Positions 22,079-59,704 of a stretch of 64,000 bases of DNA are shown here, piece by piece. Source of the DNA: Prorocentrum cordatum (taxonomy: Eukaryota; Sar; Dinophyceae; Prorocentrales; Prorocentraceae); assembly GCA_963575745.1 (NCBI GenBank), contig CAUYUJ010013891.1, positions 587,500 to 651,499 on the forward strand, written 5' to 3'. The notes under the pieces were generated by a model. That model made no database searches and was not told where the DNA came from. It saw only the letters and a list, made by a program, of their open reading frames with translations. A program made the translations under genes and the position numbers. Positions within the stretch are counted from its first letter, which is position 1. Each line of letters opens with the position of its first letter.

Positions 22079-22880
22079 ATCATCGTCGTCGTCGTCGTCG
22101 GCGTCGTCGTCGTCGTCGTCCGTCGTCGTTGTCACTGTCGTCGTAAACGTCGTAATCGTCGTTGTCGTCGTCGTCCGTCGTGGTCGTCGTCGTCGTCCGC
22201 CGTCGTCATCGTCGTCGCCACTATTCGTCGTCGCCGTCGTCGTCGTTGTCGACCCTTTTCGTCGTCGTCGTCATCGTCGTCCGTGGTCCGTCGTCGTCGT
22301 AGTCGTCATCCGTGGGTGTCGTCCGTCGTCGTCGTTGTCGTCGTCGTCGTCCGTCGTCTTTGTCGTCGTCGTCGTCGTTGTCGTCCGTCGTCGTCGTCCG
22401 TCGTCCGTCGTCGTCGTCCTTCGTCGTCGTCGTCGTCCGTCTTCGTCGTCGTCGTTGCCATCGTCGTCGGCGTCCCTCGTCGTCGTCATCGTCGTCGTCG
22501 TCGCCCGTCGCCCGTCATCGTCGGAGTCGTCGTCGTCGTCGTACCTCGTCGTCGTAGTCGTCGTCGTCGTCGTTCGTTGTCGTCATCGTCGTCGTCCGTC
22601 GTCGTCGCCGTCCTCCGTCGTCGTCGTCGTGGTTCGTCGTCGTCGTCGTCGGAGTCGTCGTCGTTCGTCGTCGTCGTCGTCGTCCGTTGTCATGGTCTTC
22701 GTCGCCGTCGTCCGTCGCCGTCGTCGTAGTGGTTGTCGTCGTCGTCGTCGTCGTCCGTCGTCGTCGCCGTCGTTGTCGTCGTCCTTCGTCGTCGGTCGTC
22801 GTCGTCCTCGCCAGTTGTCGTCGTAGTCATCGTCGTCGTCGTCGTTGTCGGCATCGTCGTCGTCGTGGTTGTCGGCCGCG
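15720..22880 (+). repeat. Giant GTC trinucleotide array (about 7.1 kb)
   Basis: Continuous GTC words on the plus strand, punctuated every 9-40 bp by CCGTCGT (a four-base step that resets phase) and by GTA, GTT, GCC or CAT variants. Longer variant blocks recur, for example CGTCCGTTGTTGTCGTCCGTCGTCC at about 15927, 16069, 16890, 17029, 17607 and 17730 (written here only as a composite of its words: CCGTTGTTGTCGTCC). Plus-strand frames read S/V/R and minus-strand frames D/T/R; none has protein-like composition. Because of the four-base steps no single frame runs the full length. Confidence 0.95.
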
Positions 22881-22959
22881 CGGCCGCGCCGCCGCGGCCG
22901 CGTTCGATTGTCGACCGATTCGAACGATTCCGGGCCCGACCGATTACGAGGCCACTGCA

Positions 22960-23751
22960 ATGGCGGAGTCACTTGAGAACAAGAAGGCTCGCATCCAGGC
23001 ATCGGCGCAGGATCTCGAGCCAGGGCAAATTCGACTCTTAATGGCATTTGGCGGCATGGTGGGCGACCAAGTCGAGCCGTTGAAGCAAGACGTCGACGAG
23101 CTCAAGCAGACCGTGAAGAAGGTAGAGACTAAGCAGGACGAGTTCGAAGTCCGCCTCAAGGCCGTCGAGAACAAGAGTTTTACGCTTTCGGCATCTTCGG
23201 TACAGGGTGCTATTGCAGCAGCGTCGGCCTCACAAGAGGGAAAGTTTGTTCCGACACGCAAGCGCCGCACAGTGTGCGTTGGAGGATTCGCGTACGAGGA
23301 GGGCAAGATCTTGTCGGACTGGGTGGAGGCGGAGCTCAAGCGCCGGGGCATGAAAGGGGTGGAGAAGGTCTTCCCGTGCGGGAGTTTGTCGGACCGGGTG
23401 GAGGTTTTGTTTCGCAAGTCTGATTTCATGTGGAAGTTTCTCGCGGCCATGAAGGGCACCAAGCTGTCGTGCGAGGCCCATGCCAAGAAACCGGATCACA
23501 AGCTGTGGCACGGGATCGACAAGTACGAGTTCGAGATCCAGCTCGGATATCGTCAACGTGCGGCGGCAGCAGTGTTGAGGGAGAAGCTCATCGCGAAAGG
23601 CGTGGACGCGGATATCGCGAAGATGGCGGTTAACGACAGGAACGACGATGGCAGCGTGGTCTTCGTACCCAGAGGTATCCCGGGAAGGGCTGGACATCGA
23701 CCGTGCAAGATTTCCGAGCAGGACCCGACCACGCACCACCTACGTGTTTGA
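22960..23751 (+). CDS. Retrotransposon ORF1: coiled coil plus RNA-binding-like domain
   Basis: The ATG at 22960 is the first in this frame after the GTC array; upstream codons only translate the repeat. The 263-residue product opens with a charged heptad-like helix (about residues 30-75, with repeated K/E/V pattern) predicted to oligomerise. A basic hinge (T-R-K-R-R) follows, then an RRM-like block starting T-V-C-V-G-G-F and including V-E-V-L-F-R-K (about 105-215). ORF1 proteins of LINEs coat the element RNA. It is uninterrupted although the downstream enzyme frames are broken. The RRM assignment is by pattern only. Confidence 0.65.
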   Translation: MAESLENKKARIQASAQDLEPGQIRLLMAFGGMVGDQVEPLKQDVDELKQTVKKVETKQDEFEVRLKAVENKSFTLSASSVQGAIAAASASQEGKFVPTRKRRTVCVGGFAYEEGKILSDWVEAELKRRGMKGVEKVFPCGSLSDRVEVLFRKSDFMWKFLAAMKGTKLSCEAHAKKPDHKLWHGIDKYEFEIQLGYRQRAAAAVLREKLIAKGVDADIAKMAVNDRNDDGSVVFVPRGIPGRAGHRPCKISEQDPTTHHLRV

Positions 23752-23874
23752 GCCGAGGCTCAGGGCATCCTGACAGGTTCTGGCGTCGACGTGGACCTGA
23801 ACGCGGAGCTGCCCGCCATCAGCGCGGCCGCCCGGCCGCGGGCAGATTGAGGAGACGGGGGAAGACCACCGCGG

Positions 23875-25459
23875 ATGCGGCGAGCCCAGGGGACAGTTCA
23901 TTCGGCGATTATTTCGTGGAATGTCCGGGGTGCGGCCGCCAGGCACCGACGGGATTTTTGTTTACGGGATCTGGGGTCGGATTATCCGTGGGTTGCGTTG
24001 CTTCTTCAAGAATTCATCTATGCGCGTAACTTTGAGAAGGCGGTCGTGCCCACGCACGTTGACGTTCGCATGGTTATCAGCAGCCTCTCCGATTCTGGCG
24101 CGACCAAGCTGGCGGCCATCGTGGTTCACGAACAGTTTGCAAATCGTGTGATCGGCGATCCCTTCATTGCACGCCGGACCGTTGCCATTTTGATGGATTG
24201 GCCTCAGTGGGGAATGCTGTGGCTGGTCACGGCGCACCTTGATTCGACAACAGATCGAACAGCACATGTAGAAACAACTGCGAGAACTCAGCGAGGCTAT
24301 CGACAAGGCGCCAAGTGAATCCATTGTTTTGATCGGAGTGGATGCCAAGTGCAATCTTGCGGATATGGACGACACGGGGCTCTTAGTGGGCGAGTTCGTC
24401 ATTGATGTTAGCTTCCCTCCTCCTCCTCCTCCTCGTGCTTCCGACCGTGCCAAATGGAAATCCATATTGCTATTTCACACTATGGCAGCACACGGTTTGG
24501 AATCTCTCAACACTTTCGAGCAGGGCGACCACGGCGTCATCACTTACTTTGGCGATGGGCGCCAGCATCAACGACAGTCCGATTATGTCCTGGGGTCAGC
24601 GGTGCGTTCGGCGATGTCTTGCTCGCCAGGGTCGTCGACAGCCGCTGTTTCAGACCGCGCCCCCATTGTGTGCGCGCTACGTTGCGCGTTGGAACCGTAA
24701 CCAGTGTGTTCTTGGAGGGGCGCGCCTAAACCTATCTGTTGGCGGCCTACGGGCATTCTTGAACACCGGATCTCTCTTTCAGAAGTTCTGGTGCGCAGTG
24801 CGCTCGAAGACCGACGCTTGTTTCCAACGTGGGGGCCGCGGGAAACCAAGGGATTGCTTTCTGACGGTAGTTTTTACTACCGCATTTCCAACGTTGCTCG
24901 ACGACGGAAGCTGGTGGGCCGCGGTGGATTCGCTTTTGCTCTTTTCTCGACCTCAGATCCAGCAGTTGGTGAAGCTCCCTTGGCAGAGCAACGCGGCCCA
25001 ATTTCGGTGGACGGGCGCGACCCCCTCTTTCTCGGAGCCACGCGGGTCACTCGTTCCACGGCGGAGTCGAGTGCAGGCGTCGCCGTGCGTCGTTGGCTAT
25101 TGTCGCAACTGGAGGCGGAGCCATCCGATCGAACAGTTCAGCCCGGAGAGGCCGCGCATACAGTTTTTGATTCGAAGTGCGTGGTGAGCATTCTCAACGG
25201 CGCCGCTCGAGCCTTGCACGGCGTGGTTCTCTGTGCAGCCCTTCGGGAAGCATGGCGACGATGCGCGATATCTTTTAGACTGGGCAGGCCGCAGCGGTGG
25301 AAAGGTCATGACCGAGATGTTGGGAGTGCGCGCGTGGGCCATCTGGCCAAGTTGGGGGCGCTACCCCATCGACGGCCCGTCCAAGGTGACTGCGTTCCCG
25401 TTTTTGTTTTACATCGGGCTTGGACGTTGGCACATGGATGGGGGACATGGCTAGGCTAG
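23875..25459 (+). pseudogene. EEP endonuclease followed by RNase H-like domain
   Basis: Frame 1 starts with I-I-S-W-N-V-R-G (about 23908) and L-L-Q-E-F (about 24001), the Asn and Glu of an exonuclease-endonuclease-phosphatase nickase. After a one-base shift at the AAA of 24272-24274, frame 2 continues with I-G-V-D-A-K-C (about 24331), S-D-Y and S-D-R-A-P-I (about 24650), the usual SDH box with His replaced by Arg. Farther on in frame 2 come S-D-G-S (about 24860), G-R-G-G-F-A-F, S-T-A-E-S (about 25060) and F-D-S-K (about 25170), spaced as RNase H acidic motifs; a possible last Asp (H-G-D-D-A-R-Y) is in frame 0 at about 25250. The order endonuclease, RNase H, then RT is unusual for LINEs. Confidence 0.55.
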
Positions 25460-25639
25460 AAGTGCCGTCGGAAGAGCAAGCATGGAGGACATTTCTACCA
25501 TGTTGTTTTCGTCGTTGCGACCACGACACCGCCGCTGCTCCCACGTCGTCGACCAGGCGATCCAGACGCAGGCTGCGTCAAGTGGACCCTCCAGCCCCTC
25601 CAGAGCATCCAGAGCCGGAGGTCTCAGAAGTCCACGAGG

Positions 25640-27840
25640 CGCCCCACCCCAGAGTTGACGATGCAGGACGTCCTCTACCCAGTTTCGGGGTTTTCGCGGA
25701 GACATGGGGCAAGGTCGCGAATCAACGGGGGCAGCCGAAGAAGACAGGCAAGCGTCATTATCTTGTTGCAGGCAACCTCGCACTTCTTTCACATGCATTG
25801 GGTGACTTACGTAGGGGATGCACGAATCCCACACCTACGGCACTTATATGGAGCAGCTCTTTGTCTGGCCAGGCGCGATATCGAGAGCGGGCGGCATTAT
25901 TTCATGCGCAGAGACGCCCTGCAGAGCGGGCGACCGTTACCGATGCGAAGACAGAAGAGCTGGCGAGGGACATTCCGGGACGAGAAGGGCAATCTCACAA
26001 TCAGCATCGATGACTTGCACCGGCTCGTTGAACGTTTCGATGAAGATTTGTGCCGTTCGCAAAGCAACGCTCCGCTGTCGAGTTTGATTTGCAAGGTTTG
26101 GGAGGTGGGCGAATTATCTACGTTGGCATCTTTCTCTTCATCGATGGTCCGGGGGGCCGTGTTCAAGCTGCACCGGGCCGCGCGCGCAGCGGCTACGACC
26201 TCGTTGTCGCGGAAATGTTACAGGCGGCCCCAGCAGAGGTATGCGACATATTGGTTGCCATGCTCACTCTTCGGTTTCGCAAGTCGCCGGCGACGGCTGC
26301 AGAAGATTGTTGGGGCGTGCACGAAGTGACCTTGCCGGCGAAAATTATCAACCCGACGACTCCGTCGAAGTGGAGACCGGCGGCAATTCTTTCCATTCCC
26401 CAGAAGTTGCGCACCACCTGGGTCGCATCAGCGGGAAGATTGCGGGACATACCTTTATGTGAAAACCAATTCGCGTTCAGGAAGAGCTACCAGCCAATGG
26501 AAGTCATGTTCGCGCTCCGGCAACTCATCGAGAAAGGCGTCGAGTTCCAGAATCCGTTGTTTTGTTTCGATGGCGACCTTTACAAAGCTTACGACACGGT
26601 GGATCATCAGGTGTGGTGCGACAGTTTCAGCAAGGCGCAGGTGCCGCGGCCCGTGGCGGAAGCATTGATCAGGGAAGCGAGACGAGGCAAAGCCACGTTC
26701 AAGCTGCCACAGACGCCTCCTACTCGACCTGTCTCCCAAACCCGCAGTGTGCCGCAGGGGGTCCCGGAGGCCCCCGCTTGCTTTAACATTTACTTTGGCT
26801 GCTCCTGGATCCAACCGTTTCTGGAGGTCTGCAAGAAGAAGGGGTGGGGATGCAGAGTACCCCGCGACGACTTACGCGAGCTGGACGCAGAGATCGAAAA
26901 ATACGGGGGGCCAAAACGGCAGAGATCGTCGCCGACTTGCGCTTCCGAGCTTTCCACGATTCCCATTTTGGTCAACGCGGAGAACTCGTGGATTTGTGCC
27001 GCAAGTAAAAAGCAATTCAAGCGCATGGTGGATACTTGGCACAGAATGGTGAAGGCGTGCCGGATGCGCGTGGAGCTCTCCGATTGTGCGTGGAGCAGCA
27101 CGGTGGATTGCAACGCGCCGCTCGAGTTTGAGGGCGTGTTTTCTAACTCGGGCACGCCGTGTTCACTGCAGTTTACGCCCAGGGAACAAGGATTCAAAGT
27201 GTTAGGTTGTCAAGTGACGTTCAACAACGACGCCGCGCAGGAAGTGTTGCGACGCATCAACGCGGCGTGGGCTCAATTTCACAAGCACCAATCTCTTTTG
27301 ACAACGATGCGGAGTTCCACCCGATTGAAGTTCGCTGCTGCACATCGTTTCATCGTGCCGGCACTATTATATTGCATTGGGAGCCTACATTTCACCCAGC
27401 GCCATCTGCAGCAGTTCAGAGCGGCAGAGATTTAGATCACGAGGAAGGTCTTGGGGTGCAGATTGGATTTCCCAGACAACGCGGGCGCGGACGCGGGAGA
27501 TTTCGCGGCAGCTTTCAATTCAAAGCTCAACATGTTGCGGAACAAGTGCAGATTCAGACGGCGGGGCGTTTTGGCTTTGGACCGGGTGTATTCTTGGGCC
27601 GGGCACGGGTCGAGGTGTGCGCATTGGGCACCAGAGAGGTTGGCATGCAGGTCTTTGGTGTTTCGGGACAGCCGGTACCTCCGAGTCCTTGAGAATCTCT
27701 ATGGCGGACAATTCCACGGAAGGAAGTTTAAAGTCTGGAGGTGCGCAGCAGTTCTCGAAGGTCTTAGGTCCCGACTGGCACTCGTTGTCCAAGAACCAGG
27801 AAGCATGGGATTCTTACCGATCAGTTTGGCTGAGTAAGCG
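25640..27840 (+). pseudogene. Reverse transcriptase and C-terminal domain of the first element
   Basis: A linker in frame 2 (D-E-K-G-N-L-T-I-S, about 25980) shifts to frame 1 in the GCGCGC run near 26180. Then come the RT fingers (S-G-Y-D-L-V-V-A-E-M-L), K-W-R-P-A-A-I-L, motif A F-D-G-D-L-Y-K-A-Y-D (about 26567-26600) and motif B Q-G-V-P-E-A (about 26757). Motif C, normally Y/F-A-D-D, reads N-A-E-N at 26973-26984, so both metal-binding Asp are lost. An in-frame TAG at 27433-27435 is followed in the same frame by the thumb/C-terminal part with Y-S-W-A-G-H (about 27590), ending near 27837. With two catalytic substitutions, a shift and a stop, it cannot encode active polymerase. Confidence 0.7.
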
Positions 27841-27961
27841 CCTGAGCGACATGAAGCAGTGACCGTTGCCGTAGTTTTCTCTTTCATCGTCTTTATTTCT
27901 TGCCCCCGCAGCCGGATGCCGCGCCCGCGTCGTGCAAGCGGAGTGCTGAACAGAGCAGAAC

Positions 27962-29099
27962 AGTCGTCATCGTCGTCCGTCGTCGTCGTTGTCGTCAGTG
28001 TCGAAGTCGCCGTTCGCCGTCGTAGTAGTCGTCGTCGTCGTCGTCCGTCGTCGTCGCCGTCGTTGTCGTCCGTTGGTGTCGTCGTCGTCGTCGTCAAAGT
28101 AATCGTTGTCGTCGTTGTCGTCGTCGTCGTCCTTCGTCGTCGTCGTCCGTCGTCGTCGTCGTAGTAGTCGTCGTTGTCGTCGTCGTCGTCGTCAGTCGTC
28201 GTCGTCGTCCGTCGTCTTAGCCGTCGTCCGTCGTCGTCCGTCGTCGTCGTCGTCGTCGTCCGTCGTCGTCGTCCGTCGTCGCCGTCGTCGTCGTCGTCGT
28301 CCGTCGCCCGTCGTTGTCCGTCGGCGTCCGTCGTCGTCGTCGTCGTCGTCGTCGAAGTCTTCGTCGTCCGTCCGTCGTCGTCCGTCGTCGTCGTCGTCCA
28401 CTGTCGCCGTCTTCGTCGTCGTCCGTCGCCGTCGTCGTAATAGTCTTTGTCGTCGTCCGTCGTCGTCCGTCGTTCGTCGTCGTCTTCCTCCGCCGTCGTC
28501 GTCGTCGTCGTCGTCGTCATCGTCCGTCGTCCGTCGTCGTCGTCCGTCGTCGTAATCGTCGTCGTCGTCCTCCGCCGTCGTCGTCGTCGTCGTCCGTCGT
28601 CGTCGTCGGCGTCGTCGTCGTCGTCGTCCGTCGTCGTCGTCGCCGTCGCCCGTCGTTGTCGTCGTCGTCATCGTCGTCGACATCGTCGTCGTCGTCGTCT
28701 TAGTCGTCGTCCGTCGTCGTCCGTCGTCCGTCCGTCTGTCGCGTCGTCCGTCCGTCCGCCCGTCCGTCCGCCCGTCCGTCCGCCCGTCTGTCCGTCCGTC
28801 AGTCCGTCAGTTCGTGTGTTCGTCCGTCCGTCCGTTGTCCGTCCGTCCGTCCGTAGTCCGTCCGTCCGTCCGTCCGTCGTCGTCGTCCGTCGTCGTCGCC
28901 GTCGTTGTCGTCAAAGTAGTCGTTGTCGTCGTTGTCGTCGTCGTCGTCCTTCGTCGTCGTCGTCCGTCTTCGTCGTCGTAGTAGTCGTCGTTGTCGTCGT
29001 CGTCTGTCGTCGTCGTCGTCGTCCGTCGTCGGGTCTTCGTAGTCGTCGTCCGTCGTCGTCCGTCGTCGCCGTCGTTGTCGTCGTCGTCGTCCGTCGCCC
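27962..29099 (+). repeat. GTC/GTCC higher-order repeat, left block
   Basis: GTC words with the same ordered markers found in 35284-38400: CAAAGTA, CGAAGTCTTCG, CCACTGTCGCCGTC, GTAATAGTCTTTG, CCTCCGCCG, GTCGACATCG, then a GTCC tetranucleotide run (28725-28880) and CAAAGTAGTCG again. It stops in mid-unit at 29099, where the LINE begins. Confidence 0.9.
29083..29099 (+). repeat. Target-site duplication, left copy (17 bp)
   Basis: GTCGTCGTCCGTCGCCC directly precedes the spliced leader at 29100 and is repeated at 35284-35300 directly after the 3' end of the element. The unduplicated word followed by GTCGTCG occurs at the same place in sister repeat units (36146, 36962, 37691). Confidence 0.85.
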
Positions 29100-29121
29100 T
29101 TTGTAGCCATTTTGGCTCAAG
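29100..29121 (+). other. Relict dinoflagellate spliced leader at the LINE 5' end
   Basis: GTAGCCATTTTGGCTCAAG (29103-29121) matches the last 19 bases of the known 22-nt dinoflagellate leader exactly; the first three bases are TTT where the leader has D-C-C. There is no donor GT after it, so it is a retroposed leader, not an SL RNA gene. The first base follows the duplicated target directly. Confidence 0.92.
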
Positions 29122-29335
29122 ATGATGTTCGCCCCGTGCGAGAGCACGGATACCCTTGATCCAGGGCTAGCGAGGGCCCAGTTGTCTCCCCGCCGCTCGT
29201 GCGCCCGCGCGAGTGAGCTTCATACCTTCGCCGCTCGATGGCTCCGCTTCCTGCCCCCCGTGGGGGTGGCGGCGGGGCTCTCAGTGGCACCTTCATGCGA
29301 CAGCCTTGGCGCGCAGTGTGGCCTTGGCGTGAACA

Positions 29336-30154
29336 GTGGCGTCGAAGCGGAGGCCAGCAACAGCAGCGAGGTCGCAAGGGCGGCCGTTGGCGGAGCTCTC
29401 CCTTCAGCAACTACTCGAAGCAGCAGCGGCCAAGACAGAGGGCAAGCAGAAGGAGAGGCTCGACGCGCTGCTGGCGGAAGCGGCCCCCACGCCAGCGGCG
29501 ACCACGCTACATGCCCCAGGCATTCGCGCCGCGCTCCGGGCTGCAGAGGGCCGAGTTCAGAAGGCCCAGGCGGCGCAGACAAAGGCCTTCCGACGGCGAG
29601 AACGTCTCCAAGATGAGCTACTGCAAGCAGAAGCTGACCTGGCCGCACGCAGCGCAGAGGTGGCCGCAGCAGAAGATGAAGTCAAAGCGGAACTTCAGCG
29701 ACATCCTCTCGGTGGCGCAGCAGCCGCCGATGCAGGCCGCGGCAAGGCCAACGTGCTTCCCATCGGCGCTCTCTTCGCGGACGAGGAGGTCGAAGTGGAC
29801 ATGGGCAACCTCTTCGAGCGCAGCGGCGACATCGGCGAGTCCGGCAAGAGAGAGATCGAGCAGCGCAAGCTCGCCTTCGTCAGCGCGGCGAAGGACGCGG
29901 CCCGCGCAGCCTTCGCGGCAGCGGCCGAGAAGCTCAGGCAGCAGCAGAAGGACCAGCAGGAGTTCATGGCGCGCCTCCAGAAGAAGAGGAAGGTCGAGGA
30001 CGAGGAGAGCGCGGGACAGAGCACAGCTGATGGCGCAGGGACTCCACCAGCGACGCCTGCAGCTGCCAGCGGAGGGTCAGCAGCCTCCTCCAGCGGCGCC
30101 CAGCGCGCAAGAGTTGGCAGACAGCGAGGTCGCAGAGAAGAGGGCCTTGGCTGA
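29336..30154 (+). CDS. LINE ORF1, coiled-coil protein
   Basis: The 272-residue product is Ala/Glu/Gln/Lys-rich. It has two long predicted helices (about 20-115, repeating A-x-x-A/E patterns with R-E-R-L-Q-D-E-L-L-Q-A-E, and about 155-220 with K-L-R-Q-Q-Q-K-D-Q-Q-E-F) separated by an acidic stretch E-E-V-E-V-D-M. A Ser/Ala-rich tail ends basic (R-Q-R-G-R-R). No zinc finger or RRM was found. ORF1 proteins usually package element RNA as trimers, and this one fits that role by position and coiled coil only. The start is the first ATG of the frame; other frames with earlier ATGs (29122, 29238) are also open but of low quality. ORF2 begins about 60 bp after its stop in another frame. Confidence 0.6.
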   Translation: MASKRRPATAARSQGRPLAELSLQQLLEAAAAKTEGKQKERLDALLAEAAPTPAATTLHAPGIRAALRAAEGRVQKAQAAQTKAFRRRERLQDELLQAEADLAARSAEVAAAEDEVKAELQRHPLGGAAAADAGRGKANVLPIGALFADEEVEVDMGNLFERSGDIGESGKREIEQRKLAFVSAAKDAARAAFAAAAEKLRQQQKDQQEFMARLQKKRKVEDEESAGQSTADGAGTPPATPAAASGGSAASSSGAQRARVGRQRGRREEGLG

Positions 30155-30212
30155 AGCAGCGGCTGCTACTCGTGAGCGCTCAAAGGTCGGCGGAGCCAAG
30201 CAGGGGCTTTAG

Positions 30213-33200
30213 CCATGGCATCTACACGCACAACTCTCGACTTGGGGGCCGAAGCTGAGGAAGCGCATCAGCAACAGCACGGGCGACATCTTCATCTTCC
30301 CTGAGACGCACGTCGGGGCGGACGGGATTAACGAGATCCTGGGCCACCTGGACGGCAAGGGCTGGAAGGCGATAGCGACGCCTTCTCGACGGAGCAACCG
30401 AGCGGGCCAGACAGGCGGCATCGGCATGGAGGCGAAGGCCCATCGTTCTGTGCAGTCGCTGCGGCATCTCGCGGCGAAGAAAGAGCTGGCGGTCGGGCTC
30501 CGTCTACTCGATGCCAATTGGTCTCCAGGGCCGATCGATTTTCAGGACATGGTGGCGATCGCGTGGCGGTGGAAGGGCCAATCGGTCCTCGTGGTCGGCA
30601 TCTACCTCACATCGTCGCTCGGAGTGAAGGGCGAGAACCAGATGAAGATGGCGAGGTTAGCAGCGCTGGCTCGTGGCCACGACGGGCCGCGGGTGGCGGT
30701 TGGCGACTGGAACGCGGAGCCGAGCGAGATCAAGCAGGCGGGCTGGCTCAGGGTGCTGGGCGGAGTGGTGCGCACGCCTGAGGACGTGCAGTGCACATGC
30801 ACACGAAGTGCTGCGAGGATGCTTGACTACGCGATATGTTCGGAGTCGTTCCAGTGCATGATCGCGAGAGTGGTCAGTGACCAGATGGACCCAGGCAATC
30901 ACTACGGGGTCAGAATCCACATTCGGGGAGAGACCGAGTCGGCGCTCCAGGGGATGTTCCCCCTCCCCAAGCCGCTGCCCGTACCTGACGTGCCGAGGAG
31001 GCAGGCCGACCCGAGCAGCAAGAGGAGCAGGCAGAAGGAGAAGGACCGCCAGCAGAGGGGCGTCAACGAGGGGATGGCGTGCGCGGAGGAGAACGCAGTC
31101 GAGGTCGAGAACTTCGCGGCCGTCCGCTGCTCGGACGTCCCTGCCGAGTGCACGAGGGTCGACCAGGAGATGGAGGACCTCTTCGGCGGCTACGAGTCCA
31201 GTGTGGAGGATGACGGGGTCAGCGACTACGGCGAGAAGAAGGTCGAGAAGGAGACCAAGCGGAGCGCAGACGAGGTGTTCGACGCCCCCGAGGCCCAGAG
31301 GGACGAGATCTGGCAGCTCAAGATCGGCCAGGCCTACGGGGGGGATCGTCGTGCCTGGCGTACGCCGCCAAGCTACATCGCGGACTCGGCGGCGTACCAG
31401 TTCGATCCCTTCGGCGCCAACGAACTGGGCGCGCAGTTCGGAGCGCGGGTGCGCGCGACGGAGCAGCACTACTTGGGCTTGCTGAGGATCGAGCCCACCG
31501 AGAGGCGCAAGTACGCTGGGAGGGGCGAGGCAGTGAGTTTCGCCACGAGAGTCAAGCGGATGAGCGATGACGTGGCCAGCGATGCCGACAGCTCCATCAC
31601 GTGGTGGGGGACCTTGGCTTCCTACTTGGTCGAGCTGCAGCGCTGCCATGGTCAGGGACGGCGTAGTCAGCACCTGCGGAACCGCATCCGAGAGATGAGC
31701 AGTTCCATGCCGAGTTGGGGGGTTGTCAAGATGACGGGCAAGCAGAAGAGGAAGTGGCGCACCACCCTGGCCGAGGCGCACAGCTTGAGCACCGCGCAGC
31801 TCCAGGCCCTCGGCGTGGCAGCACTCACCGCGGCCAGGAAGGGCAAGCGCGCGGGGGTGAACGAGGCGCTCATCGCGTACACCAACTGGGTGCAGGAGCA
31901 GGAGGCGGTGGGCAGTGGCAAGCTTCACCGGCGCACACGGGACAAGCCCAGGTGCGACAACGAGGTCAGGATCAGCGACTGGACGGCCTCCAAAATGGTC
32001 GAGTACATGGACGCCAAGGGCGCGCAGTGGAAGAAGAAGTGGACCAGCAGCTACGCTCGCGCCGTCGTGCTGGACAAGTTGGAGGCCGCCAGGGCAGCAG
32101 CCTTGGAGGAGGATTGGGCCCCCATCACCTTGGAGAGCCTCAACCGCGCGATCCACAGCATGGGCAAGAGCAAGGCGAAGGGCGTCGAGCAGCTGGGGGC
32201 CCTCGCCTACAAGTGGCTCCCTCCCAGCGCCAGGGTCGAGCTGTTCAACGTTCTCATCCAGGTCGAGCGCACGGGGACCTGGCCTTGGCAGCTCATGGTC
32301 ACGTTAGTCAGCTTGCTGCGCAAGGACGCGGGGGGCGACCGTGCCATCGGGCTGCTGTCGGAGGTGATGAAGATCTGGTCCAAGATCAGGAGTCAGTACA
32401 CGAACGAGTGGGTGTCGCACATGGCTGGGAAGTGGGTCGCCGCGATCGCGGGCAACAGCGCCCTGAAGGAGGCCCTCGTCCGCTCCTTCGCAGACGAGGT
32501 GCTGGAGTGAGCACCCATGAAGATCTACACGGTGACTGCGTTGTGGGACTTAGCGGAGTTCTACGACACCTTGGAGCCCTTCCTCATCCTGGAGGAAGGG
32601 CTCCGCCTCGGCCTCCCAGCGCGCACTTTGCACCTGGAGATGCTGAACCATCTGAGCACGAGGCTAGTACGAGAGCGGACGGCCTACGCAGAGCCGATCT
32701 CGCCCGACAGGTCCATCTGCGCGGGTGCCAGGCGTGGCATCGATTTCGGCAGGGTGGCGCTCTACGCCACGTTGGAGCAGGCCTGCGCGAAGTACCAGCA
32801 GGTGTACGTCCGCTCGTGGGTGGACGACGTCACCACCAGGATGGAGGGGTCCAGGCGCGAGGTGATCAAGCAGCTCACGGGCGCCGGAGTGGACTTCGCC
32901 GCAGGGGTCAGGAAGGCCAAGCTCACCCTTTCGAGCAAGTCCACCCTGATCGGCAACGACATGGACGTGGTCAAGGAGGTTGCGCTCAGGCTGAGGAGCC
33001 GCGACATCGTGGTCAAGGTGAAGGGCCAGGCGCCAGACCTGGGCATCGACAGGGGCCACAGCATCGGAGGAGGCAAAGGCAAACGCGCGAAGCGAGCCGC
33101 CCATGCCGACCGCCAGGTGGCCAAGGCGCTGAAGATGGCGAGAAGTGGTCGAAGAGCCAGGGGCGGCGCGAAGCAGGTCGTCCAGCGGGGAGCGCTGCCT

Positions 33201-35201
33201 CGAGCAGCCTATGCATGCAAGGTTTTCGGCATGGCTCCCAGCACGGTTACCAAGTGGAGGAGGAGGCTGGCCTCGCTGGTAGCCCCGCGCCTTCGAGGCC
33301 GCTGCCTCACAACGCTGCTGCAGCTGGAGATCGGCGTGGGCGATCCTGCGTTCGGCGCGGTCTTCACGCTTCTCGACTCGTGGATGCACATCGTCAGCGA
33401 CCCGCAGAGGAGGAAGAAGGTATGCATCGCATGGCCTCGCATCGTCTCGGCCATGGGGAAGAAGAAGCCGCAGCACAGGTGGCGAGGAGTTACGGGCATC
33501 ACGCGCGCCATGGTGGTCACGCTGCTGGACCTGGAGTGGCAGCCCCTGGGGCAATGGCACTGGGTCTCGAAGGAGGGCGAGGTTTTCGGCGGCGACGACG
33601 AGAACGCGCTGGACGACGACGTGGACCTCAGCGACCTGAAGGCGGCGATCAAGAGCACGATCGAGGTTAAGCAGTGGGCGAGGGCCGCGCAGCATTTTGC
33701 AGGCGGCGGCCTGGAGGGAGGAGCTGACCTCCGCTCTGCGAAGATGAAGATCGGCAAGCTTCGCACGAAGGGCCAGTGCGACAAGGTGGGCGCGTTCCTC
33801 GCGATCATGACTGGGCGAATTTGGCCGAGGCAGCGCGTGGCGGACCTCGGCATCGAGATCGAGGACGTCATGTGCCCTAGGTGCGGCGAGGAGCCAGAGA
33901 CGCGGAAGCACCTCATGTGGGAGTGCAGGTGCAACGAGACCATCGAGGGCATCGAGACGTCGCAGCACATCGCGGCGAGAGCGGCCACTGAGGTCGAGAA
34001 CCAGCCGTGCCTGTGGCTGCGAGGCCTGCTACCAGCGAGCTGGGCGGCGGTCAGCGGCCCGCCCGAGCCTGGGACAGAGTTGACCGAGAGCTTCGGTGAC
34101 TTGCAGGTCCTGTCTAGCGACGTGGTGAGCATGACGGACGGTTGGCTCATCGCGGCTGGTGATGCGTCAGGCGGCGAGTACACGATGGACCCAAGGCTGA
34201 GGAGGGTGTCTTGGGGCTGGGTGGTCTTCAACAGTGTGGACCCAACAGAGGCGAAGGTGGTCGCAGGCGGCCGTGGCGCTCTTGCGGGTTGGAGGCAGAG
34301 CGTCAACCGCGGGGAGCTCATGGCGCTGAAGGACGTGATCACCGCAACTGGAGGGTACTACGACAAGATCAGGTACACCGCCGACTCGTCGTACGTTGTC
34401 AGGGGCATGGACAAGCTTCGAGGAGGGAGGATGCCCAAGACGCACGTCGACCTGTGGAAGGAGGTCAAGCAGGGCCTAATCGGCAAGCAGGTCGAGATCA
34501 TCAAGGTGGAGAGCCACATGTCGTCCCAGGAGGCGCTGGACGCAGAGGCCAACCCGATCGACTGGCTCGGGAACGTCTTGGCGGACGACTTCGTGGACGG
34601 CATCGCGGAGTCGGTGCAGGTGCCGCGCGCGCAGGCGCGGTGTGTGGGCTTCGCGGGGGGCGTCGCAGGGCTCGTCAGGGACCGTGCCTACCTGGCGCCC
34701 ATGGCCTCCATCGAGGCGGAGCCGTCGCAGGTCCCGGGCTTGAAGGTCAGGCAGGAGGCCCACGTCAAGGCGCGTAGGCGCGCGGCGCTGCTGGAGGGCA
34801 CCAAGCACAACATCTCCCACGACGTGAGTGGCAAGCACTACAGGTGCCTGAGGTGCGGGTCCCGCGCACTGATGTCCTCAGCGGACGCATGGCTGGCAGG
34901 CGAGTGCATCGCCGTGCAGAAGGCGGACGCCGTCCACGGTTCGCTGAGGAGCAGGCCGAGGATCGCGAACCAGGAGGCCCACGAGAGCCACTTCGTGCTG
35001 TACGTGGAGGAGCTCGGCCTGCACTACTGCAAGAAGTGCGGCTGCGTCGCGATAGAGAGCATGAGGAAGCTCGCGCAGGTCTGCGAGGAGACCCCAGGCC
35101 AGATGGGGAAGCATAACCTCTCGAGGATCGCGAAGGGCCTGCAGCCAGGCACCAGCGCGATGGCGCTGGAGTACAACAAGAAGAAGAGCGGAGGGAGCTG
35201 A
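30213..35201 (+). pseudogene. LINE ORF2: endonuclease, reverse transcriptase, RNase H, one in-frame TGA
   Basis: One frame is open from 30213 to 35201 except for TGA at 32508-32510. The EEP endonuclease shows P-E-T-H (about 30300), G-D-W-N-A (about 30705), L-D-Y-A (about 30828) and N-H-Y-G (about 30900). RT fingers (K-S-K-A-K-G, about 32170) precede the stop. After it come motif A D-L-A-E-F-Y-D (about 32550) and motif C W-V-D-D-V (about 32820), a YADD variant that keeps both Asp. Numbering from the ATG at 32517: zinc knuckle C453-C456-H465-C470; RNase H acidic residues D549, E600, D623 and D690/691; CxxC pairs 777/780 and 838/841. The first ATG is at 30426, but homology starts upstream, so initiation is unclear. 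The stop could come from CGA by one C-to-T change. Confidence 0.8.
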
Positions 35202-35283
35202 GCACGCGCCGTTTGCGCGTGGCGCAGCCCTTTGCACTGCCCGCAGACTGCGGGAGAGGCGGCGCAGCCCCCTCGGCACAAAA
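35202..35283 (+). other. LINE 3' UTR with two short hairpins
   Basis: CACGCGC (35203-35209) pairs with GCGCGTG (35215-35221), and CCCGCA (35240-35245) with TGCGGG (35249-35254). The element ends CACAAAA, a very short A-rich tail. Such 3' stems are recognised by the RT in some LINEs; here that is inference. Confidence 0.6.
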
Positions 35284-35500
35284 GTCGTCGTCCGTCGCCC
35301 GTCGTCGTCCGTCGTCGTCCGTCGTCGTCGTCGTCGTCCTCGTAATCGTCCAAGTCGTCGTCGTCCGTCCGTCGTCGTCGTCGTCTTCCACTGTCGTCGT
35401 CTTCGTCGTCGTCCGTCGCCGTCTTCGTAATAGTCTTTGTCGCCGTCCGTCGTTCGTCGTCGTCGTCCTCCTCCGCCGCCGTCGTCGTCGTCGTCGTCGC

Positions 35501-35533
<33 letters not shown>

Positions 35534-35600
35534 ACCGTCGTCATCGTCCGTCGTCCGTCGTCGTCGTCCGTCGTCGTCGTCCACTGTCGTCGTCGTCCTC

Positions 35601-35635
<35 letters not shown>

Positions 35636-36117
35636 TCAGTCGTCGTTGTGGCGTCGTCGTCGTTTAGTCCGCCGTCGTCGTCGCCGTCGCCCGTCGTTGT
35701 CGTCGGTGTCATCGTCGTCGACATCGTCGTCGTCGTCCTAGTCGTCCGTCGTCGTTTGTCGTCCGTCGTCCGTCGTCCGTCGCCATCGTCGTCGTCATCG
35801 TCGTCGCGTCGTCCGTCCGTCTGTCGCGTCGTCCGTCCGTCCGTCCGCCCGTCCGTCCGTCCGTCCGTCAGTCCGTCCGGTCGTCTGTTCGTCCGTCGTC
35901 CGTCCGTCCGTCGTCCGTCCGTCCGTAGTCCGTCCGTCCGTCGTCGTCGTCCGTCGTCGTCGTCGTCAAAGTAGTCGTTGTCGTCGTTGTCGTCGTCGTC
36001 CGTCGTCGTCGTCGTCCGTTTTCGTCGTCGTAGAAGTCGTCGTCGTCGTCGTCGTCAGTCGTCGTCGTCGTCCGTCGTCGCGTCTTCGTAGTCGTTGTCC
36101 GTCGTCGTCGTTGTCGT

Positions 36118-36149
<32 letters not shown>

Positions 36150-36434
36150 TCGTCCGTCGCCCGTCGTCGTCCGTCGTCGCCGTCATCGTCGTCATCGTCG
36201 AAGTCTTCGTCGTCCGTCCGTCGTCGTCGTCGTCGTCGTCGTCGTCTTCGTCGTCGTCCGTTGCCGTCGTCGTAACGGTCTTTGTCGTCGTCCGTCGTCG
36301 TCCGTCGTACGTCGTCGTCGTCGTAATCCTCCGCCGTCGTCGTCGTCGCCGTCGTCGTCGTCATCGTCCGTCGTCCGTCGTCCTCGTCCGTCGTCGTAAT
36401 CGTCGTCGTCGTCCTCCGCCGTCGTCGTCGTCGT

Positions 36435-36469
<35 letters not shown>

Positions 36470-37890
36470 CGTCGTCGTCGTCGCCGTCGCCCGTCGTTGT
36501 CGTCGTCGTCGTCGTCGACGTCGTCGTCGTCGTCCTAGTCGTCGTTCGTCGTCGTCCGTCGTCGTCGTCGTCGTCATCGTCATCGTCGTCGTCTCGTCCG
36601 TCCGTCTGTCGGGTCGTCCGTCCGTCCGTCCGCCTGTCCGTCCGTCCGTCCGCCCGTCGGTCCGTCCGAGTCCGTCCGTTCGTCTGTTCGTCCGTCGTCC
36701 GTCCGTCCGTCGTCCGTCCGTCCGTCCGTAGTCCGTCCGTCCGTCCGTCGTCGTCGCCCGTCGTCGTCGTCGTCAAAGTAGTCGTTGTCGTCGTTGTCGT
36801 CGTCGTCGTCCTTCGTCGTCGTCGTCGTCTCCGTCGTTGTAGTAGTCGTCGTTGTCGTCGTCGTCGTCAGTCGTCGTCGTCCGTCGTCGCGTCTTCGTAG
36901 TCGTCGTCCGTCGTCGTCGTCGTCGTCGTTGTCGTCGTCGTCCGTCGTCGCCGTCGTCGTCGTCGTCGTCCGTCGCCCGTCGTCGTCCGTCGTCGTCGTT
37001 GGCGTCGTCATCGTCGAAGTCTTCGTCGTCCGTCCGCCGTCGTCGTCGTCGTCCACTGTCGCCGTCTTTGTCGTCGTCCGTCGCCGTCGTCGTAATAGTC
37101 TTTGTCGTCGTCCGTCGTCGTCCGTCGATCGTCGTCGTCCTCCTCCGCCGTCGTCGTCGTCGTCGTCGTCGTCGTCGGCGTCGTCGTCGTCGTCGTCCGC
37201 CGTCGTCGTCGCCCCCGTCGTTGTCGTCGTCGCCATCGTCGTCGACATCGTCGTCGTCGTCCTAGTCGTCGTCCGTCGTCGTCCGTCGTCCTTCGTCCGT
37301 CGTCCGTCGTCGTTGTCGCCGTCGTCGTCATCGTTGTCGCGTCGTCCGTCCGTCTGTCGCGTCGTCCGTCCGTCCGCCCGTCCGTCCGTCCGTCCGCCCG
37401 TCCGTCCGTCAGTCCGTCCGTTCGTCTGTTCGTTCGTCGTCCGTCCGTCGTCCGTCCGTCCGTCCGTAGTCCGTCCGTCCGTCGTCGTCGTCCGTCGTCG
37501 TCGTCGTCAAAGTAGTCGTTGTCGTCGTCGTCGTCGTCCTTCGTCGTCGTCGTCCGTCTTCGTCGTCGTAGTAGTCGTCGTTGTCGTCGTCGTCGTCATT
37601 CGTCGTCGTTGTCGTCCGTCGTCGCGTCTTCGTAGTCGTCGTCCGTCGTCGTCGTCGTTGTCGTCGTCGTCCGTCGTCGCCGTCGTCGTCGTCGTCGTCC
37701 GTCGCCCGTCGTCGACCGTCGTCCGTCCGTCGTCGTCGTCGTCGTCATCGTCGAAGTCTTCGTCGTCCGTCCGTCGTCGTCGTCGTCGTCGTCCACTGTC
37801 GTCGTCTTCGTCGTCGTCCGTCGCCGTCGTCGTAATAGTCTTTGTCGTCGTCCGTCGTCGTCCGTCGTCCGTCGTCGTCGTCCTCCTCCC

Positions 37891-37946
<56 letters not shown>

Positions 37947-38400
37947 CGGCGTCGTCGTCGGCGTCGTCGTCGTCGTCCGTCGTCGTCGCCGTCGCCCGTC
38001 GTTGTCGTCGTCATCGTCGTCGACATCGTCGTCGTCGTCCTTCGTCCTTCGTCCGTCGTCGTCCGTCGTCCGTCGTCTGTCGTCCGTCGCCCGTCGTCGT
38101 CGCGTCGTCCGTCCGTCTGTCGCGTCGTCCGTCCGTCCGCCCGCCCGTCCGTCCGTCCGTCCGTCCGCCCGTCCGTCCGTCTGTCAGTCCGTCCGTTCGT
38201 CCGTTCGTCCGTCGTCCGTCCGTCCGTCGTCCGTCCGTCCGTCCGCAGTCCGTCCGTCCGTCCGTGGTCCGTCCGTCCGTCCGTCAGTTCGTCGCGTTGT
38301 CCGTCCGTCCGTCGCGTCGTCCCTCCGTCCGTCCGTCCGTCCGTCCGTCGTCGTCGTCCGCGCGTCCGTCGTCCGTCCGTTTGTCACTCGTTGATCGTCT
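35284..38400 (+). repeat. GTC/GTCC higher-order repeat, right block (about four units of 740-840 bp)
   Basis: Begins with the right copy of the 17-bp target duplication (35284-35300). Unit markers recur in order: CGAAGTCTTCG at about 36199, 37015 and 37750; GTAATAGTCTTTG-like at about 35427, 36271, 37093 and 37832; GTCC tetranucleotide runs starting about 35813, 36598, 37345 and 38110; CAAAGTAGTCG at about 35968, 36774 and 37508. The last GTCC run is longer and ends with TTGTCACTCG near 38390. Translations are S/V/R or D/T/R strings and are not genes. Confidence 0.92.
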
Positions 38401-48342: not shown

Positions 48343-48805
48343 TGCTGGGCGCGTGCTGTGCGAGGGTGCGCCGTTGATCGTCTGTGAGAATTCGGAGGTT
48401 CGCGGGGTGGCGGTTGCAAAAGTATCATCAGTCTGCCAGGTGTTTCGAACTGACCCTTTCAACTGACCCTGTCAACGTGCCCCAGGATCTTGTCAACGGG
48501 CTCTCCCAGGATCTTGTCAACGGGCCCTGTCAAAGTGCCCCCCGGCGGCCTCCCGGAGACTCTTCCGGCCCTGATTCGGAGTCGCCCTGAGGCCGCCAGC
48601 GCGCCCCTACTCACATTCGGGGGCGGCGCCGCGTCGGGGGCGCCCCGCGGGACATCGGGGCAGCCCCGCTTACATCAGTTTGAAATCTGTCGTTGCAGAG
48701 ACCCATCAAGGCGCGATCATCGCGGGCCGCCCTCGGCCGTCGGATTCTTGGAAACGCGGCGTCTGGCCCACTTGTGATTCCCCGCTGTTGCCGCGACGGT
48801 CGCCC
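48343..48805. other. No gene recognised; short CAGGATCTTGTCAACGGG repeat
   Basis: Around 48450-48540 the words CTGTCAACGTGCC and CAGGATCTTGTCAACGGG repeat two to three times. The rest is featureless. Confidence 0.5.
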
Positions 48806-48824
48806 GCGTCCGTTTTGGCTCAAG
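48806..48824 (+). other. Probable relict spliced leader upstream of the RING gene
   Basis: GCGTCCGTTTTGGCTCAAG has the last 12 leader bases (TTTTGGCTCAAG) intact and 15 of 19 overall. The RING-finger ATG lies 78 bp downstream. Confidence 0.55.
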
Positions 48825-57237: not shown

Positions 57238-58960
57238 GTGCAGGGGGTGGTCTCTCACCGCGGTTCTCTATCCGTCTCAGGGTCGCGGGGCGTGGCAGGC
57301 GTGGCACTTTCTCGACGCCAGAGAGGGTGCGCAGGGGGTGGTCTCTCACTGGTCTCTCTATCCGTCTCAGGGTCGCGGGGCGTGGCAGGCGTGGCACTTT
57401 CTCGACACCAGAGAGGGTGCGCAGGGGGTGGTCTCTCACTGGTCTCTCTATCCGTCTCAGGGTCGCGGGGCGTGGCAGGCGTGGCACTTTCTCGACACCA
57501 GAGAGGGTGCGCAGGGGGTGGTCTCTCACTGGTCTCTCTATCCGTCTCAGGGTCGCGGGGCGTGGCAGGCGTGGCACTTTCTCGACACCAGAGAGGGTGC
57601 GCAGGGGGTGGTCTCTCACTGGTCTCTCTATCCGTCTCAGGGTCGCGGGGCGTGGCAGGCGTGGCACTTTCTCGACACCAGAGAGGGTGCGCAGGGGGTG
57701 GTCTCTCACTGGTCTCTCTATCCGTCTCAGGGTCGCGGGGCGTGGCAGGCGTGGCACTTCTCGACACCAGAGAGGGTGCGCAGGGGTGGCTCTCACTGGT
57801 CTCTCTATCCGTCTCAGGGTCGCGGGGCGTGGCAGGCGTGGCACTTTCTCGACACCAGAGAGGGTGCGCAGGGGGTGGTCTCTCACTGGTCTCTCTATCC
57901 GTCTCAGGGTCGCGGGGCGTGGCAGGCGTGGCACTTTCTCGACACCAGAGAGGGTGCGCAGGGGGTGGTCTCTCACTGGTCTCTCTATCCGTCTCAGGGT
58001 CGCGGGGCGTGGCAGGCGTGGCACTTTCTCGACACCAGAGAGGGTGCGCAGGGTGTGGTCTCTCACTGGTCTCTCTATCCGTCTCAGGGTCGCGGGGCGT
58101 GGCAGGCGTGGCACTTTCTCGACACCAGAGAGGGTGCGCAGGGGGTGGTCTCTCACTGGTCTCTCTATCTGTCTCAGGGTCGCGGGGCGTGGCAGGCGTG
58201 GCACTTTCTCGACACCAGAGAGGGTGCGCAGAGGGTCGTTTCTCACTGGTCTCTCTATCCGTCTCAGGGTCGCGGGGCGTGGCAGGCGTGGCACTTTCTC
58301 GACAGGGGGTGCGCAGTGGGTGGTCTCTCACTGGTCTCTCTATCTGTCTCAGGGTCGCGGGGCGTGGCAGGCGGGTGGCACTTTCCTCGACCCAGAAAGA
58401 GGTGCGCCAGGGGTTATTCTCTCACTGGTCCTCTATCCGTCTGCAGTGTCGCGGGCGTGCAGGTCGTGGCACCTTCTCGACACCAGAGAGGGTGCCCAGG
58501 GATGGTCCTCGTCACTCCTGGTCCTATCCGCTCAGGACATCGCGGGGCGTGGCAGGCGTGGCACTTTCTCGAACACCAGAGAGGGTGCGCAGGGGGTGGT
58601 CTCTCACTGGTCCCTCTATCTGTCTCAGGGTCGCGGGGCGTGGCAGGCGTGGCACTTTCTCGACACCATAGAGGGTGCGCAGGGGGTCGTTTCTCATTGG
58701 CCTCTCTATCCGTCTCAGGGTCGCGGGGCGTGGCAGGCGTGGCACTTTCTCGACACCAGAGGGGGTGCGCAGGGGGTGGTCTCTCACTGGTCTCTCTATC
58801 TGTCCCAGGGTCGCGGGGCGTGGCAGGCGTGGCATGTTCTCCACTCCACAGGGGGTGCGCAGGGTGTGGTCGGTCACCGCGGATTCTATCCGTCCCAGGG
58901 TCGCGGGGCGTGGCAGGCGTGGCATTTTCTCCGCGCCACGGGGGGTGCGTAGGGGGCAGG
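57238..58960 (+). repeat. 90-bp satellite, array 1 (about 19 units)
   Basis: GTGGCACTTTCTCGACACCA recurs exactly every 90 bp from 57301 to about 57661; an indel cluster follows at 57760, and strong degeneration at 58310-58560. The unit also holds GGTCTCTCACTGGTCTCTC and CAGGGTCGCGGGGCGTGG. Because 90 is a multiple of three and the unit lacks stops, all three plus frames and two minus frames stay open. The 30-residue protein repeats (for example Y-P-S-Q-G-R-G-A-W-Q-A-W-H-F) are probably not expressed. Confidence 0.93.
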
Positions 58961-59101
58961 TACCGCGGGTGCATTCCATCAGTTGTACTTGCATGGGTGT
59001 GCGCAGTATCCAGGTCTGTAAGTACTCTGGCTCAAGCCAGCTCGGAGCGCCAGGGTACCTAATCGAAGGCCGCAGTTGGTTGTTGCGCAGGCGCGCTAGC
59101 C

Positions 59102-59182
59102 ATGCCGCCTAAAATTGCCATGGGCGAGCTGCCGCCTCCGTGCTCGTCGCTGAAGAAAGACATGATTCAGAATGGCGGCGGG
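59102..59182 (+). CDS. Candidate first exon, copy 1
   Basis: ATG at 59102 reads M-P-P-K-I-A-M-G-E-L-P-P-P-C-S and continues to a GTAAGC donor-like word at about 59183. TTGTTGCGCAG, an acceptor-like word, lies just upstream (about 59083-59093) as if for leader addition. The same arrangement is kept in the second duplicate (61567). No downstream exon or family was recognised; the evidence is conservation between two recent duplicates only. Confidence 0.3.
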
Positions 59183-59704
59183 GTAAGCTTGGCAGGCTTA
59201 CGCTGCTGCTCTGAAGCGGCGGTGGTCCCCGCATTTCACGCGTACCGCCGCCAGCTGAAAAATTGGTGGCCCAATACCTTGCACGTCCAGGGCACAGCGG
59301 TATCGGCGGGGCAACGGCCACCAACATCATTCTCACATGCTTCACTTCAGCTCTCATCACTCCAGCCATAATATAAGTATGTGGGGTTCCTCGGTAGCGT
59401 AATTTCCCTGCCGCGTCGCACCCGCGTTTCTCCTCTTCCTCCTTGCCCCTCCTTCCCTCTTCCCTCCACACATCCAGGGGCTGGTGTGATGATTCCCTCT
59501 CTCTTTTTCTGGTTCCCCACAGCAACGCAAGCAGACGCATGAGCACGCAGCAGACGCACATCCACAGTCGACATCACAGTCATCACATACATCCACCATA
59601 CACGCAGCACACAGACACACAGCACACACACATCACCCGTACACACTACCAGCACAAACAGACACAGCACGCACGCGCAGCAAACAGGCAAACAGCACAC
59701 AGAC

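Follow-up and report, generated by a model that had tools for sequence, protein, structure and literature searches.

How does a long interspersed nuclear element (LINE) come to begin with the spliced leader (SL) of its dinoflagellate host, and is that leader inherited from copy to copy or added anew in each round of transposition? The question is raised by a stretch of 64 kb from Prorocentrum cordatum (contig CAUYUJ010013891.1, positions 587,500 to 651,499; hereafter the window, whose first base is position 1), in which a decayed LINE copy at 29100-35283 is inserted in a GTC array between two 17-bp duplications. We consider it probable, at roughly two chances in three, that this element is a copy of a LINE family templated by its own trans-spliced mRNA, with a leader that would be renewed in each round and not inherited.

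The insert and its leader

The insert starts with TTTGTAGCCATTTTGGCTCAAG, ends with CTCGGCACAAAA, and is bounded by identical copies of GTCGTCGTCCGTCGCCC at 29083-29099 and 35284-35300 (these and all features of the element are given on the plus strand). The array forming the target extends over 27963-29096 on the left and over 35284-38129 on the right, where it contains uninterrupted repeat units. The duplicated 17-mer occurs six times in the window, and since at least 17 bp are common to random abutting GTC-array ends in 0.9% of pairs, the duplication alone is only moderately surprising. Four other, uninterrupted array units each hold the 17-mer once, at the same place as in the insert flanks, and are 83.6-94.1% identical to the left and 85.1-90.6% identical to the right flank. 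Moreover, the flanks joined with one 17-mer align straight through units 35643-36591, 36441-37508 and 37169-38181. The uninterrupted units are a paralogous empty site for the insert, and together with the identical 17-mers they bear out the target-site duplication that an earlier reading of the sequence alone (the sequence-only reading) had claimed here.

The array gives an independent 5' boundary as well: the first base outside it is nucleotide (nt) 1 of the SL. A full-length 22-nt SL occupies 29100-29121 and matches the published dinoflagellate leader, given in the available text of PMC7245778 as DCCGTAGCCATTTTGGCTCAAG with D standing for T, A or G, at 20 of 22 positions, the last 19 nt being exact. 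The earlier description of a leader of full SL length at the insert start is thus confirmed. When the 21-nt SL was searched with at most three mismatches, this was the only match in the window and none was found in 100 shuffles. It is followed by ATG and not by GT, the splice donor that follows the SL in an SL-RNA gene.

Copies across the genome

The host genome of 4.13 Gb was surveyed with a 22-nt pattern near the start of the first open reading frame (ORF1) that contains no SL letters and whose reversed control gave no match. All 67 pattern matches were inspected (54 newly fetched, 12 fetched before, and the window), and the SL was scored as present at up to three mismatches of 21. It stands at the ORF1 start, the same place as in the window, in 65 of the 67 copies and is perfect in 35; the two exceptions are L083, reduced to the last 15 nt, and L102, without any SL. 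ATG follows immediately in 62 of the 65 SL-bearing copies, and SL nt 1 is T in 59. Many copies (including L066, L077, L086, L088 and L110) are identical or near-identical downstream (distance 0 to 0.008) at different genomic places, which points to a recent burst. L061 and L069, with flanks identical over 90 nt, are probably one insertion counted twice, and 21 other flank pairs with at least 85% ungapped identity all involve TCC repeats, where likeness is expected; otherwise the flanks of the 67 copies differ.

When the first 679 bases behind the SL were used as a DNA query, 43 matches were obtained. The 5' end was matched in 24 of 32 loci examined besides the window, and all 24 start with a recognisable SL at the ORF1 start (by eye, some much decayed). 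An SL scan of the eight loci without a matched 5' end found it perfect in five and with three mismatches in one, while L032 has a damaged candidate (six mismatches) and L027 none; four of the five perfect-SL loci, having identical following bases, are possibly one duplicated locus.

Duplications of 17 bp were present in five (the window, L043, L044, L045 and L046) of eight copies examined, a sample made up of the window and seven others from which L047, being without a 3' end, was left out. The edge of the duplication meets SL nt 1 (T) exactly in the window, L044 and L046; in L043 one T is common to the duplication and SL nt 1, and in L045 the edge is off by two additional bases. L040 and L042, situated in perfect repeats, tell nothing about a duplication, and L041 has a duplication of 11 bp and a decayed SL. 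The 5' ends of other copies, which the sequence-only reading had proposed as a check, therefore agree with it in leader, flanks and duplications, and the pattern it had named as contrary (copies without the leader that extend upstream with conserved sequence) was not seen among the 67, where only L102 lacks the SL and L083 has it in part.

The same reading had TTT in place of the first three leader bases and tentatively ascribed it to copying error at methylated cap-proximal nucleotides. Given that D may be T, the first base of the window SL fits the published leader and only nt 2-3 deviate (CC to TT), so that two of the three supposed replacements stand. The explanation fails as a family trait, because nt 2 is changed in 3 of the 65 copies and nt 3 in one, and the TT is private to the window copy. 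For this copy a copying error is also possible, and a later C-to-T mutation could explain it equally well; one paper suggests, in the text available, that SL cytosines nt 2 and 8 are possibly methylated (PMC7245778), and the genomic CG in the SL could have mutated after insertion.

Hairpin module and target context

A short 5' module (29122-29166) directly follows the SL and consists of the start codon, hairpin 1 (29134-29138 paired with 29145-29149, by eye), GGATACC and hairpin 2 (29153-29156 paired with 29163-29166). For its comparison, the 60 nt after the SL were aligned in 24 SL-started sequences, this element among them, chosen as diverse from 28, leaving out L068, L072, L078 and L003, the last of which is without the hairpin motif. 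Common to the aligned modules are GGAYACC and a hairpin whose loop is of the TRRTCC type and whose stem covaries (CCCT/AGGG, CCGC/GCGG, CCTC/GAGG). In the stem of hairpin 2, 95.8% of 96 cells are paired, with 17 two-sided cells, against 15.6-58.3% paired in slid controls, and its covariation score was reached by none of 500 shuffles; one of five stem measures, a count of further pair types, did not exceed the shuffles (418 of 500).

The SL core followed by GGANACCNYTNGTCC within 18-44 nt has 2,203 matches in the genome and none in the reversed control, a count in which tandem loci can figure twice and whose pattern leaves hairpin 1 outside. Exact GGATACCGCTAGTCCGCGG, which holds no SL letters, has 2,272. 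Among the first 100 listed places of the latter, a comparison by eye finds 79 that are also among the listed SL-module matches. Of the remaining 21, 20 were inspected: 17 have an SL (at most three mismatches) and three have damaged remnants by eye. Ten ORFs from five module loci and L008 gave a clear endonuclease match in L153, a weak one in L158 and none in the rest.

On the sense strand, the 60 nt preceding the SL are for the most part TCC or GTC repeats; their pyrimidine fraction is at least 0.7 in 51 of the 65 copies and below 0.5 in none. Past the 3' duplication, the fraction is 52-68% in eight copies (raw flank fractions, not relative to the genome-wide frequency of such arrays). Among 48 general SL places sampled from 100 matches listed, 24 are similarly pyrimidine-rich and 11 lie in purine-rich, mostly GGA, flanks. 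Three of these 11 (L119, L140 and L142) share similar sequence after the SL (TAAACG...GATTAG), and the purine-flanked places may represent a further family of SL-started repeats whose target orientation is reversed. The GTC array of the window holds a second LINE (LINE 2) at 22875-27962, with a match to RVT_1 (3.4e-8); a search with its 5' end found only itself and two 62-bp matches, and thus no useful relatives.

Renewal or inheritance of the leader

If fresh SLs decay after insertion, low SL divergence and mismatches that track distance are expected. Per site, the SL differs from the canonical one by 3.5% in the 65 copies, against 20.9% divergence of neighbouring columns from the column majority and 30.7% pairwise, and SL mismatches are more numerous the farther a copy is from its nearest relative (rho 0.58, p 4e-7, where p is only a guide as the copies are related). 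There are 24 distinct SL changes. Fourteen are common to at least two copies, but any of the carriers are nearest neighbours in only two of these, and in eight they are at least as far apart (≥0.307) as copies in general. Copies that are near-identical downstream (≤0.008) lie in different flanks, and L075 and L084 among them have private SL changes.

Several observations weigh against renewal or against its wider frame. The carriers of the remaining six shared changes are closer than average (0.133-0.305), and SL changes independent of relatedness are also what one would expect if source copies were under purifying selection. Retrocopies often carry an SL in tandem with a 15-nt relict, the new leader joining at GTAG (PMC3229502, in the part available), and 2,426 exact tandem junctions stand against 14,996 exact SL 19-mers genome-wide (some loci counted more than once), but not one of the 65 copies has a tandem. 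This would have a probability of about 1e-5 if the genome-wide ratio applied per copy, and it differs from the 48 sampled SL places, six of which are tandem by script (0/65 versus 6/48, Fisher p 0.005); L009, L125, L145 and L149 among the latter are decayed tandems by eye. LINE 2 lacks an SL at its 5' edge, and no duplication abutting it was found. Furthermore, the reverse transcriptase (RT) call in ORF2 of the window element is drawn from motifs and LINE domain order, and the support for a trans-spliced template comes from genomic DNA, from which we infer the RNA steps and the renewal in each round.

The main rival to renewal is a single capture of the SL by trans-splicing, after which selection has kept it as a hard-wired 5' end (an initiator, promoter or translation signal), with transcription from SL nt 1 and no trans-splicing in each round. 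The single SL at a fixed place, without tandems, suits this explanation, as does a published suggestion of promoter activity for a TTT(G) motif within the SL (PMC6050394, in the text available). Read-through followed by splicing at the GTAG acceptor would yield tandems, so their lack leaves two options, splicing at the terminal CAAG acceptor alone or a hard-wired SL; any recurrent trans-splicing in this family must use the AG at the old leader's end. A fixed SL accords poorly, however, with SL changes that are mostly independent of relatedness, with bases between SL and hairpin 1 that vary in otherwise similar modules (by eye), and with tandem SLs in related modules. Tandem SLs, a mark of repeated trans-splicing, are found at three loci among the SL-module matches listed, with L168 a further one (by eye), and L153, which belongs to another LINE family (endonuclease domain, 4e-8), has an SL and a 15-nt relict SL in tandem. 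On balance we regard the hard-wired leader as unlikely, at little better than one chance in four.

Far less probable is that the machinery of another element mobilised the LINE mRNA like any SL-tagged mRNA of the cell, the SL being incidental and without a role for the element. SL relicts are indeed common, as the 14,996 exact 19-mers show, and half of the 48 sampled places are likewise pyrimidine-flanked. Yet this family has the SL on nearly all 5'-complete copies examined, a near-constant 3' end and 17-bp duplications in five of eight copies, and it seems to encode its own endonuclease and an RT-like ORF. Two further explanations are rejected. LINEs of the SLACS/CZAR/NeSL type insert into SL genes and, like the element described here, adjoin SL sequence, and the SL does sit at the 5' edge of our insert; but here it is inside the element, the duplications lie outside it in other sequence, and no intron donor follows the window SL. 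A chance match or an assembly artefact in a simple-repeat array might have appealed to the 0.9% of array-end pairs given above, but is refuted by the survey of 67 copies and by the 2,203 SL-module matches, for both of which the reversed pattern matched nowhere.

That trans-splicing is part of the element's life cycle, as the sequence-only reading had proposed, is hence supported by the SL-started copies and the 17-bp duplications, while fresh trans-splicing in every round is the part that we infer. With a renewed leader, the element RNA would receive the 22-nt SL at an acceptor AG at the ORF1 start and be translated; target-primed reverse transcription would begin at the CGGCACAAAA 3' end and reach leader nt 1; and insertion, for the most part into trinucleotide arrays rich in pyrimidines, would create duplications of 17 bp. 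The upstream pyrimidine tract from the array and the terminal AG of the old leader may then serve as the acceptor of the next round. More tentatively, and somewhat short of an even chance, a whole LINE superfamily might have ceded its 5' end to host trans-splicing: its endonuclease would place it downstream of pyrimidine-rich arrays that act as the acceptor tract, the leader's terminal AG would be the acceptor so that the leader is replaced exactly each round, a covarying hairpin module would follow the leader at more than 2,000 places, and dinoflagellate SL-tagged retrogenes may be products of the same machinery.

Coding regions of the window copy

The ORF1 region (29122-30154) has a broken frame: the ATG frame is open for 164 codons, and a coiled-coil-like ORF at 29333-30154 lies in another frame. 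At 29379/29380 about 220-230 bp are lacking that are present in all eight other close copies. The first part of ORF2 (30213-32510) holds a putative apurinic/apyrimidinic endonuclease (APE)-type domain and the putative start of the RT, and is closed by an in-frame TGA, past whose position the relatives P0001, P0004 and P0005 continue. The endonuclease motifs PETH (30300), GDWN (30702), LDYAICS (30822) and NHY (30897) come in order, and Pfam Exo_endo_phos reaches E 0.0068, which is under the cut-off. The second part (32511-35201) has RT motifs A (32538-32573), B (32718-32750) and C (WVDD, 32817-32831) by eye, followed by zf-RVT (1.9e-4) and RNase_H (1.1e-4), both just under the Pfam cut-off on ORF2; Pfam RVT had no match in ORF2 of the window element. 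The missing 220-230 bp, the out-of-frame ORF1 and the in-frame stop in ORF2 make the window copy look dead.

The 3' untranslated region (UTR; 35202-35283) closes the element with an end that is reached by seven of the eight other close copies, two of them with small tail differences; L047 stops earlier. Target-site duplication, a short A-rich 3' end and dispersed copies, as used to recognise LINEs, are all present. Two protein searches with ORF2, scoring the best 8000 word-sharing candidates, found six relatives in all, every one a Prorocentrum cordatum protein. No match was obtained in a protein search with ORF1 residues 90-200 or with an ORF2 profile against the RT of LINE 2; PDB sequence searches gave one chance-level match (E 0.53) and otherwise none, Rfam had nothing for 29000-29500, the fold of the 3' UTR was no better than shuffles (z -0.39), and a viral-contig scan showed no relative of the element.

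Relation to known elements and minor observations

In the usual picture a LINE carries its own promoter at its 5' end, as each copy needs to be transcribed again, and a family with the host SL as its 5' end would be a different solution to re-transcription. SL-tagged retrogenes of dinoflagellates were reportedly described as mRNA recycling by Slamovits and Keeling. They likewise have an SL relict 5' of a reinserted cDNA, and tandem truncated relicts after re-splicing (PMC3229502 and PMC6050394, in the parts available), and our insert has what marks such retrocopies, an SL at its 5' edge with no SL-RNA donor following. The cargo here, in contrast, appears to be an autonomous LINE, with the SL on nearly every 5'-complete copy examined and no tandem in 65. 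In SL-LINEs the genome would hold a record of both trans-splicing and retrotransposition, and the RT behind SL-tagged retrogenes would have a concrete candidate; a review favours long terminal repeat (LTR) elements as the likelier source of that RT (PMC6050394, in the text available).

Retrotransposons bearing an SL have been noted in flatworms (six cases in PMC5832876; 597 discarded loci in PMC12582326), where the authors suggest that retrotransposon transcripts got an SL and then integrated; these are partial leaders (PMC12582326) or possible assembly chimeras (PMC5832876), and the available parts of both texts give no duplications or copy tables. L1Tc/ingi of trypanosomatids are also LINEs in a trans-splicing host with a conserved short 5' module, but their Pr77 promoter/ribozyme module is an internal promoter that gives unspliced transcripts (PMC8190864, as far as its available text goes). 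SymbioLINE-Dnmt and other Symbiodinium LINEs are likewise dinoflagellate LINEs with two ORFs; the ORF1 of SymbioLINE-Dnmt carries a DNA methyltransferase, and the accessible portion of the text does not mention a spliced leader (PMC5890265). We found no description of dinoflagellate LINEs beginning with an SL in the open-licence literature, subscription papers being mostly outside the search.

SL relicts were also seen elsewhere. Some loci, e.g. C558:437136-437188, have three or four relicts arranged head to tail in steps of 15 bp, which record repeated recycling. Within the window, a truncated relict (CCGTTTTGGCTCAAG, 48803-48824) lies about 80 bp upstream of a RING-finger ORF and likely marks a retrogene. 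Dinoflagellate viral inserts with an SL and LINEs nearby have been described (PMC10235124, in the text available). The AT-rich IMG/VR contig IMGVR_UViG_3300045993_001077 (L001) carries two exact dinoflagellate SLs on the minus strand (2746-2764 and 2893-2911), one of them just upstream of a GC-richer ORF of 254 aa, which looks like a captured trans-spliced algal mRNA. Finally, long arrays of a 90-bp tandem repeat occupy 57240-61396 of the window.

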